From NCBI GenBank assembly GCA_039555135.1, contig CP114179.1, forward strand, positions 372,001 to 436,000: a stretch of 64,000 nt of DNA, in the 5' to 3' direction. The DNA comes from Phycisphaeraceae bacterium D3-23 (GTDB lineage: Bacteria; Planctomycetota; Phycisphaerae; Phycisphaerales; Phycisphaeraceae). Of this stretch, positions 8,280 through 11,819 are shown piece after piece (position 1 is the first letter of the stretch; every line of letters begins with the position of its first letter). Below the pieces are notes generated by a model. It searched no databases. It had not been told where the DNA came from and saw only the letters and a program-made list of their open reading frames with translations. The translations under genes were made by a program, and so were the position numbers.

Positions 8280-8309
8280 AAGCCCCGCCCAACCCGGCGG
8301 GGCTTTTTT
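8280..8309 (+). terminator. Intrinsic terminator after the tricorn-like gene
   Basis: A perfect 10-base-pair stem (AAGCCCCGCC / GGCGGGGCTT) with a six-base loop, running directly into six T residues. It lies 30 bases after the protease stop codon. Confidence 0.92.
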
Positions 8310-8363: not shown

Positions 8364-8524
8364 CTCCCCCGAAACTAAACGCCTGCCCCACCCGCCCCCG
8401 TTTGCCCGCAACCCCCGATCGCCTTATCCTGTGTGGTTCGACCACCCCCGCCCAATCCCCGCGACCCCGCCACTAACGCCGCCACTAACGCCGCTACTAA
8501 CGCCGACCCAAGGAACCGCCCGCG

Positions 8525-9439
8525 ATGCCTGACACGATGCTCGACGTCCGCGACACCGCGACCAGTGACAAGTACTACCAGCAAGGCCTCGAAGCCGAGC
8601 AAAACGGCAACCGCGTCGAGGCGATCAAGGCCTACGAGGCCGCCTACACCGCCGACCCCGACAACACCGAGGTCTGCTTCCGCCTCGCCTACAACCTCGA
8701 CCTGTTGGGCGAAGAAGACGAAGCCATCCACCTCTACGAAGAGTGCTGCCGCGTCGAACGGCCCAACCTCAACGCGCTGGTCAACCTCGCCGTCATGTAC
8801 GAGGACCAGAACAAGTACAGCCAGGCCGAACGCTGCATCCGGCAGGTCCTCACGACCGACCCCAACCACGACCGCGCCCGGCTGTACATCCGCGACATCA
8901 TGGCCAGCCGCGAGATGCTCGTCGACGACGAGCAGGAAGCCAAGTCCGTCAAGCAGGACGCGCTGCTCAACACGCCCGTCACCGACTTCGAGCTCTCCGT
9001 CCGCACCCGCAACGCGCTCAAGAAGATGGATATCCGCACGCTGGGCGACCTGCTCAAGGTCACCGAGGCCGAGCTGCGCAGCTTCAAGAACTTCGGCGAC
9101 GCGTCGCTCGAAGAGATCAAGGCCATGCTCGCGCAGAAGCACCTCCGTCTGGGCGAGTCGGTCGAGAAGAGCCAGGAAGAAGTCAAGCAGCGCGTCTACG
9201 ACGAGATCGCCAGCAAGACCGGCGACAGTGAGATGCTCGGCAAGAGCGTCAACGAGCTCGCCCTTTCCGTCCGCGCCCGCAAGGCCCTTGCGCTGCTCAG
9301 CGTCGCGACGCTCGGCGACCTGTGCATGAAGACCGAGGCCGAGCTGATGGGCGTCAAGAACTTCGGCATGACCTCGCTGGTCGAGATCAAAGAAAAACTC
9401 GTCGAGATGGGGCTCTCGCTGCGGACCCTCGAAGCGTAA
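8525..9439 (+). CDS. TPR protein with two RNA polymerase alpha-CTD-like domains
   Basis: A 304-residue soluble protein. Residues about 15-125 form tetratricopeptide repeats (for example EAIKAYEAAYTADPDN and A-E-R-C-I-R-Q-V-L-T-T-D-P-N). Two helix-hairpin-helix domains of the RNA polymerase alpha C-terminal type follow at about 150-210 and 240-303, spaced exactly 90 residues apart (LSVRTRNAL at 157-165, LSVRARKAL at 247-255; KNFGDASLEEIK and KNFGMTSLVEIK). Positions matching E. coli alpha Arg265, Gly296, Ser299 and Glu302 are kept in both (R160/R250, G191/G281, S194/S284, E197/E287); Asn268 is kept in the first only, and Lys298 is lost in both. A role in binding DNA or the transcription machinery is inferred. 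It is flanked by terminators, so it is probably transcribed alone. A 12-base unit (about CCACTAACGCCG) repeats three times near 8469-8505 just upstream. Confidence 0.88.
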   Translation: MPDTMLDVRDTATSDKYYQQGLEAEQNGNRVEAIKAYEAAYTADPDNTEVCFRLAYNLDLLGEEDEAIHLYEECCRVERPNLNALVNLAVMYEDQNKYSQAERCIRQVLTTDPNHDRARLYIRDIMASREMLVDDEQEAKSVKQDALLNTPVTDFELSVRTRNALKKMDIRTLGDLLKVTEAELRSFKNFGDASLEEIKAMLAQKHLRLGESVEKSQEEVKQRVYDEIASKTGDSEMLGKSVNELALSVRARKALALLSVATLGDLCMKTEAELMGVKNFGMTSLVEIKEKLVEMGLSLRTLEA

Positions 9440-9470: not shown

Positions 9471-9507
9471 GAACAGCCGCCGCGTCACACGCGGCGGTTG
9501 TCTTTTT
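9471..9507 (+). terminator. Intrinsic terminator after the TPR/alpha-CTD gene
   Basis: A long GC-rich stem (CAGCCGCCGCGT paired with the GCGGCGGTTG side, three-base loop) followed by TCTTTTTC. It lies about 30 bases after the stop at 9439. Confidence 0.88.
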
Positions 9508-10115: not shown

Positions 10116-10919
10116 CTACGCCCTTCGGCGCTTGAGCTGTTGGCGTTGCAGCCACGCGCCGTACTGCACCAGCCGTGACTCCAATGCCTTGCCTTCCTTG
10201 CCCTCGGGCAGCTCGAAACGCAGGCCGAGATACAGCCCGGTCGTATCGAGCGGCGAGAGATGGACGAGCGTCGTGTCGAGGTCGATGACTTCGTTGTCCG
10301 ACTGGATCTCCAGCCGGCAGCGGTACTTCGTATCACCCTGAATCTCGCGGAGTAAGTCGCGGCTGGCGCGGATCGAGACACCCATGCCACCGCCGCCGAG
10401 GTTGACCATGCGGGCTCGGACTTCGTCTTCGATATCTTTGCCGTGGGCCAGCAGACTCACGGTACCCAGGTCCGCCCCGGCCGTATTCACGCGGAAGAAC
10501 GATCGGCGCTGGTCGGGCCGGATGCGTTTGGCGGGGCCGAGTTTGAAGCAGGTGACGCGCGTCGCCCGGTTGATCTGTTTCGCCGCGACCTCGCGCAGCT
10601 CGCAGTCGCCAAGCATGCGCTGATTGTTGACAACAAGTAGCAGCTCGATCGTATCGCCGACGCGGAACGCGTGGTCGAGCACCGACTGGTCGGGGCGCTC
10701 GACGATGATCTCGCCGTCCTTGCTGACCTCGAACAGCCGGCTCTTGTAGACCTTGCGCGTGTCGTCGGCGCTCGCGCCGCGCGGCGCGAGCTCGACGCCC
10801 CCGTCGCGTTTGGACAGGTGGGCCAGGAACTGCTTCCAGTCGCGTTGGTCGATCTTGCTCAAGCCGGCCGCCTCTCTCCCGTTCCGCCCCGCCGTCACGG
10901 CTCCTCCGCCACGGCCCAT
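10116..10919 (-). CDS. PilZ-domain protein, probable cyclic-di-GMP effector
   Basis: About 267 residues from the ATG at 10919. A TTG at 10862 with GAGAGG upstream would give 248 residues and may be the true start, since the first 19 residues are low-complexity Gly/Ala/Arg. The N-terminal half resembles the YcgR N-terminal beta barrel; the C-terminal PilZ domain begins with RRSFFR, the arginine-rich cyclic-di-GMP motif, followed by VNLGGGGMGVSI, matching the (D/N)-x-S-x-x-G motif with Gly in place of Ser. Such proteins change motility or surface behaviour when the messenger binds. No flagellar gene is nearby; the MshEN protein at 32804 is another possible cyclic-di-GMP reader in this window. 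Confidence 0.82.
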   Translation of the reverse strand: MGRGGGAVTAGRNGREAAGLSKIDQRDWKQFLAHLSKRDGGVELAPRGASADDTRKVYKSRLFEVSKDGEIIVERPDQSVLDHAFRVGDTIELLLVVNNQRMLGDCELREVAAKQINRATRVTCFKLGPAKRIRPDQRRSFFRVNTAGADLGTVSLLAHGKDIEDEVRARMVNLGGGGMGVSIRASRDLLREIQGDTKYRCRLEIQSDNEVIDLDTTLVHLSPLDTTGLYLGLRFELPEGKEGKALESRLVQYGAWLQRQQLKRRRA

Positions 10920-11021
10920 CAACGCGCCGCCCGCGCGACACCTTCCTCCCCTACATCGGACCAACCCCGGCCCGACTTCACGCCAAAACAGCCCAGCCCG
11001 CACGATCGCTACACTGCAACG

Positions 11022-11819
11022 ATGCCTACCCCCGGCCACGGCTCCGACCTCACCCTCGCACCGACCCTCGGCCCGCTGGTACGCGCGAGCAGACGCCCGG
11101 TCCGCGCGGCGTTCTCGGCCCTCGCCGACCTCGGGTTCCGCAGCGTCCAGCTCGACGCCGGCCTCCCCGGCATCCGCCCACGCGAGCTCGACCAGCGCGC
11201 CAGGCGAGACCTGGCCGCCGCCGCCCTGCGCGCGGGACTCGCGATCACCGGGATCGACCTGTTCATCCCTCGCCAACACTTGCTCGAACCCGAGCACCTG
11301 GATCGCGCGACCCAGGCCCTCTTCGCCGCGCTCCAGTTCGCCGCCGACCTCGGCCGCGTACCGCTGAGCGTGGCCTTACCGATCGCCGAGTTATCAAGTG
11401 AGGTTACGGATGCGCTGCTCGCACTGGCCGATGCGCGGGGCGTGATGCTTGCGGTGCATGCGGAGGACCAGCCCGAGGCCTTGTCGGCATGGATCGCCGA
11501 GTCTGGTGAGGGGATCGCCGGGATCGCGCTCGATCCAGCGCCTGTGCTGGCTTCACAAAACGACCCGGTGCAGCGCCTGCAACAGGCGGGCAAGCTGCTC
11601 GCGATCTCGCGTCTCAGCGACACCCAGCGCGGCCTTGGCGACGGCTCGCGGCTGCCCATCGGCGCGGGCGACCTCGACATCTCGGGCTACCGCATCAGCG
11701 CCGACCTCGCGCCCGACCGCCTCGGCCCGGTCGTCCTCGACCTGCGCGGGCTGACCGACCCGGCAGGCGCTGCGGCCGCCGGCAAACGCGCATGGGACAA
11801 CGCCGCGGTGAAGTTTTAG
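11022..11819 (+). CDS. Xylose-isomerase-like TIM-barrel protein
   Basis: 265 residues. The pattern of alternating strands and helices (VRAAFSALADLGFRSVQLDA, LAITGIDLFIP, VMLAVHAEDQPEALSAWI, IAGIALDPAPVLA) fits the sugar phosphate isomerase/epimerase superfamily. Several acidic and His positions usual for metal binding in that superfamily are hard to place: only H-A-E and L-D-P are evident, so the catalytic competence is uncertain. It is divergent from the PilZ gene and ends just before a compound palindrome. No pathway can be assigned. Confidence 0.72.
   Translation: MPTPGHGSDLTLAPTLGPLVRASRRPVRAAFSALADLGFRSVQLDAGLPGIRPRELDQRARRDLAAAALRAGLAITGIDLFIPRQHLLEPEHLDRATQALFAALQFAADLGRVPLSVALPIAELSSEVTDALLALADARGVMLAVHAEDQPEALSAWIAESGEGIAGIALDPAPVLASQNDPVQRLQQAGKLLAISRLSDTQRGLGDGSRLPIGAGDLDISGYRISADLAPDRLGPVVLDLRGLTDPAGAAAAGKRAWDNAAVKF

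Follow-up and report, generated by a model that had tools for sequence, protein, structure and literature searches.

Why does a planctomycete genome encode, apart from its RNA polymerase (RNAP), a protein with two domains of the kind that ends the RNAP alpha subunit (alpha-CTD), and what could such a protein do? The question is raised by a gene found in Phycisphaeraceae bacterium D3-23 at positions 8525..9439 (+) of the window, which is the whole analyzed stretch of 64,000 nucleotides. The open reading frame and its translation (P0001) define a 304-aa protein with full-length homologues across Planctomycetota, in which a TPR domain is followed by two alpha-CTDs (CTD1 and CTD2); it is referred to below as the TPR-(CTD)2 protein.

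Gene structure

The sequence AAGGAA is located nine bases 5' of the ATG start codon. One terminator-like stem-loop (8280..8309, +) lies between the gene and an upstream gene for a tricorn-type protease, and another (9473..9506, +) follows the gene on its 3' side; the latter suggests a single-gene transcript in the window, where the gene stands alone and is flanked by the protease gene and unrelated genes. Three 12-base tandem repeats (GCCACTAACGCC, GCCACTAACGCC, GCTACTAACGCC) were found at 8469-8504, 20 bases 5' of the start codon, and no such triple repeat arose in 100 shuffles. They were rejected as a conserved operator, being absent in the six relatives checked. Downstream of the gene, positions 10116-11297 (-) encode a PilZ-domain protein (29.7 bits at a cut-off of 22.5).

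Domain architecture

The TPR domain consists of three repeats at residues about 14-118 (8564..8878, +). The Pfam models TPR_1, TPR_2, and TPR_8 all exceeded their cut-offs and covered two to three stretches, which places the protein among TPR proteins. The AlphaFold2 (AF2) model has helices at residues 11-26, 30-43, 48-61, 64-75, 82-94, and 98-111 of this part, for which TPR proteins were the best Foldseek matches. A long conserved helix, residues 116-148 in the AF2 model (8870..8968, +), links the TPR domain to CTD1.

The alpha-CTD family PF03118 matched the protein twice, with 125 bits summed at a cut-off of 23.8. CTD1 occupies positions 8945..9133 (+; 74.9 bits, G000:C1:380945-381133) and CTD2, near the C-terminus, positions 9224..9403 (+; 61.7 bits, G000:C1:381224-381403), so that the layout of two tandem alpha-CTDs behind a TPR scaffold, proposed in the preliminary description, was borne out. 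The same description had called for a profile search on each copy, a better match to generic helix-hairpin-helix (HhH) folds being the result that would speak against it. The generic HhH identity was rejected. HHH_5 scored 18.1, below its own threshold of 27, while all 50 of 50 matches of the CTD-part profile among PDB sequences were RNAP alpha. The AF2 model of the two-CTD part (mean pLDDT 78, about 80-87 within the domains) retrieved RNAP alpha structures in 50 of 50 Foldseek matches among those listed, including CAP/UP-element complexes, and superposed on 9zum, an alpha-CTD on A+T-rich DNA, with an rmsd of 0.8 Å over 64-65 columns at 48% identity. By profile, PDB sequence, and fold, both copies are true alpha-CTDs. 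The full-length AF2 model (mean pLDDT 82.5, pTM 0.44) supports the domains and not their mutual arrangement.

The protein is not an alpha subunit: the N-terminal dimerisation/assembly domain of alpha is absent, the TPR domain is present there instead, and the genome has a separate rpoA. The only further PF03118 site in the whole genome is a 364-aa frame at G000:C1:75470 that reads as an ordinary RpoA. The TPR-(CTD)2 protein as a whole is acidic, with a pI of 4.8 and a calculated charge of about -16; the CTDs carry only about +1.

Distribution in Planctomycetota

The preliminary description considered a single genome, but the gene is phylum-wide, and the phylum survey rejected the idea of a peculiarity of one genome. 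The protein search gave matches in 61 of 61 near-relative genomes and in 292 of 294 genomes sampled across the phylum; a few of these matches, mostly in incomplete genomes, are to rpoA or to TPR sequence alone, making the full-length count somewhat lower. PF03118 was present in all 48 high-completeness genomes; in 46 of them, rpoA contained one copy and the TPR-(CTD)2 protein contained two, and the homologues of the other two (G145 and G248) have a single recognizable CTD. In G145 (locus L200), this CTD is kept in the C-terminal part of the homologue, and G248, of the same genus, looked similar in the family search. Outside Phycisphaerae, the N-terminal TPR part is longer, and the frames mostly comprise about 430-600 aa. 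Most of the 126 distinct two-CTD homologues terminate 0-4 residues past CTD2. Their CTD spacing varies from 83 to 108 residues; the distance of 90 residues noted earlier is thus exact for the 304-aa protein and not conserved. Some of the extracted homologue loci derive from the same or near-identical genomes.

All records returned by a scan of genome contigs with the 304-aa protein were planctomycete, and no phage relatives were found in viral contigs. Matches in PHROGs were weak and unrelated, and those in plasmid records never covered more than about half the query, the annotated ones being rpoA; both were rejected as relatives. The best explanation is a core, vertically inherited protein of Planctomycetota with a homologue in nearly every sampled genome of the phylum. 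A literature search found no description of this protein, and it is not named in the consulted part of the paper on essential genes of Planctopirus limnophila (PMC10632474). TPR and alpha-CTD are already recognized by domain databases; what is new is the layout, the near-universality in the phylum, and the lack of a found description.

Residue conservation

In E. coli RpoA, DNA is contacted by a determinant comprising residues 265, 268, 296, 298, 299, and 302, while an acidic patch touches sigma region 4. The preliminary description placed equivalents of Arg265, Gly296, Ser299, and Glu302 in both copies, and they were found there (R160/R250, G191/G281, S194/S284, and E197/E287). Other contact positions, missing from that list, are not all equal to E. 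coli: N268 corresponds to N163 in CTD1 but to K253 in CTD2, the C269 position is Ala in both copies, and at the K298 position, CTD1 has Ala and CTD2 has Thr.

Across the phylum, in 120 CTD1 and 125 CTD2 sequences (E. coli RpoA numbering; values for CTD1/CTD2), R265 is conserved in 99/100%, N294 in 99/97%, G296 in 100/97%, S299 in 95/95%, and E302 in 100/99%; position 267 is Arg in 96/88%. Position 268 distinguishes the copies, being Asn in 92% of CTD1 and Lys or Arg in 90% of CTD2. Position 298 is mostly Thr. Of the E. coli DNA determinant, both copies keep 265, 296, 299, and 302, CTD1 alone keeps 268, and 298 is not Lys. Thr is also found at position 298 in 25 of 25 sampled planctomycete RpoA CTDs, so the absence of K298 is no argument against function. 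In CTD1, position 259 is acidic in 100% and position 261 in 98% of the sequences. The near-complete phylum-wide conservation of the minor-groove arginine and its neighbors in both copies makes DNA binding more likely; the conserved G296, S299, and E302 may also serve the fold and hence are no proof of DNA contact.

By mean conservation, CTD1 ranks highest, followed by TPR repeat 3 and CTD2, and the stretch linking the two CTDs varies. In TPR repeat 3 and the helix behind it, conserved residues include N87 (100%), D94 (99%), P113 (100%), and D124 (98%); R117, D124, and S128 of the long helix are conserved at 90% or more in the phylum alignment.

Origin of the two copies

In the IQ-TREE phylogeny of 53 CTDs, CTD1, CTD2, and the RpoA CTDs formed three separate groups (support 99/96, 96/92, and 90/94), and FastTree recovered the same groups with weaker support; the deep branching order is uncertain because the alignment is short. 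Since there are three such groups, one ancient duplication, after which the copies were kept separately across the phylum, would be the simplest reading. Both modules may derive from an RpoA-type alpha-CTD that was duplicated before the phylum diversified.

Gene neighborhood and possible function

The gene is retained phylum-wide, its two CTD copies are differentiated, and their contact positions are conserved. We infer that the protein may bind DNA, the polymerase, and a partner and have a role in transcription; it could, as suggested in the preliminary description, form a bridge from DNA to a partner or be a competitor of the polymerase at UP elements. Our preferred reading, held tentatively and with somewhat less than even confidence, is a DNA-binding adaptor with a role in transcription, the TPR part of which recruits a conserved partner. 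On A+T-rich DNA close to promoters, the alpha-CTD modules would occupy the minor groove, as RNAP alpha-CTDs do at UP elements, while the TPR part, chiefly through repeat 3 and the long helix behind it, would grip a conserved protein that might be RNAP, a sigma factor, or some other factor associated with DNA. Since the acidic patch used in E. coli to contact sigma region 4 is preserved in CTD1, this copy could work together with RNAP at the promoter. A more specific version, in which the protein is a universal accessory transcription factor of Planctomycetota that supplements the polymerase at promoters with two extra specialized alpha-CTDs on a TPR scaffold, is possible but rather unlikely. 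Two findings argue against the adaptor: the protein is acidic overall, and its neighbors in other genomes (ruvAB, tgt, secDF, and spoIID) are not transcription genes.

The gene order makes a role linked to RuvAB the main rival. In classes other than Phycisphaerae, 44 of the 67 homologues are followed on the same strand, at a distance of up to 600 bases, by ruvA as the next cluster gene; this count takes in locus L097, where ruvC intervenes (TPR-(CTD)2, ruvC, ruvA, ruvB; RuvC Pfam match at G258:C6:42384-42827). Often, ruvA overlaps the TPR-(CTD)2 gene or starts only a few bases from it, and ruvA, tgt, queH, or spoIID is the next such gene in 49 of the 67. In the complete loci L088 and L092, the TPR-(CTD)2 gene heads the cluster and is followed by what we take, from sequence reading and knowledge of the families, to be ruvA, ruvB, queH, spoIID, tgt, yajC, and secDF; RuvC alone was named by Pfam. 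The protein could thus be an accessory of recombination or repair, with its CTDs serving as DNA-binding modules of the (HhH)2 type and its TPR part touching RuvA, RuvB, or another repair protein. However, the cluster is functionally mixed, with queH, spoIID, tgt, yajC, and secDF among its members, and the domains are alpha-CTDs rather than RuvA-like HhH. Moreover, spoIID and not ruvA is the next gene in six of six loci of Phycisphaerae other than Phycisphaerales and in 9 of 52 Phycisphaerales loci, and the window has none of these neighbors. We consider this role unlikely.

Two further explanations dispense with RuvAB. The CTDs might mimic the RNAP alpha-CTD as a protein-only decoy, holding activators or sigma factors, or occupying their alpha-CTD sites, and so tuning transcription without DNA. 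Such a decoy would agree with the sigma-contacting acidic positions 259 and 261 kept in CTD1 and with the acidity of the protein, but it would need neither the DNA-contact set including R265, which is at least equally conserved, nor the basic residue gained by CTD2 at position 268, and is quite improbable. A tandem pair of DNA-binding-type domains and near-universal presence would also suit a DNA-binding protein that has a general structural task and no preference for promoters, such as an organizer of the nucleoid, which is unusually condensed in this phylum. We regard this as very doubtful: a specific TPR surface is conserved, and the calculated charge of the CTDs is only slightly positive, unlike that of typical nucleoid proteins.

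The presence of the TPR-(CTD)2 protein in practically every sampled genome points to a core protein, so far unstudied, whose place of action is probably DNA or the transcription machinery. Little work has been done on how Planctomycetota control transcription, and a near-universal protein with two polymerase-type modules for promoter DNA located off the polymerase is a clear target. Action at promoters would represent a new way of deploying the alpha-CTD, and, if the accessory-factor reading is true, the phylum in effect has additional alpha-CTDs outside RNAP; action with RuvAB would tie the alpha-CTD fold to recombination.

Comparison with known systems

The closest relative is the RNAP alpha-CTD itself: profile, PDB sequence, and fold all point to one and the same domain family, and positions 265, 294, 296, 299, and 302 are kept. 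Unlike RNAP alpha, the planctomycete protein has two tandem CTDs on a TPR domain and no alpha N-terminal domain, and the genome retains a complete rpoA of its own. The preliminary description took the alpha-CTD to be normally a terminal feature of the alpha subunit, a premise that proved too strict, since such domains are also found in PglW-like kinases, in short alpha-CTD-only proteins, and in an 803-aa planctomycete frame (L194), where three weak alpha-CTD-like segments (13.9-24.3 bits) lie close to the N-terminus. PglW-like BREX kinases, including frames in L198 and L199, likewise carry an alpha-CTD-like domain outside RNAP, but they are large, have a weak single CTD match, occur in few sampled genomes, and lack the TPR-(CTD)2 layout. 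Membership of the TPR-(CTD)2 protein in BREX PglW was rejected: it scored 32.9 bits at a cut-off of 990 with the CTD part alone matching, and the PADLOC match was confined to the same part. Free-standing alpha-CTDs are also represented by PRK07758 (NF005841) and by short alpha-CTD-only proteins of some Planctomycetota, the 109-155 aa frames in G257, G176, and G222 (L195, L196, and L197); these differ in having a single copy, no TPR, and a presence in few sampled genomes. Among TPR-containing regulators, Streptomyces AfsR (SARP-NOD-TPR) works at RNAP, where it makes contact with the alpha-CTD (PMC10936776), but its DNA-binding domain is of the SARP type, and the alpha-CTD that it meets belongs to RNAP and is not a part of AfsR.
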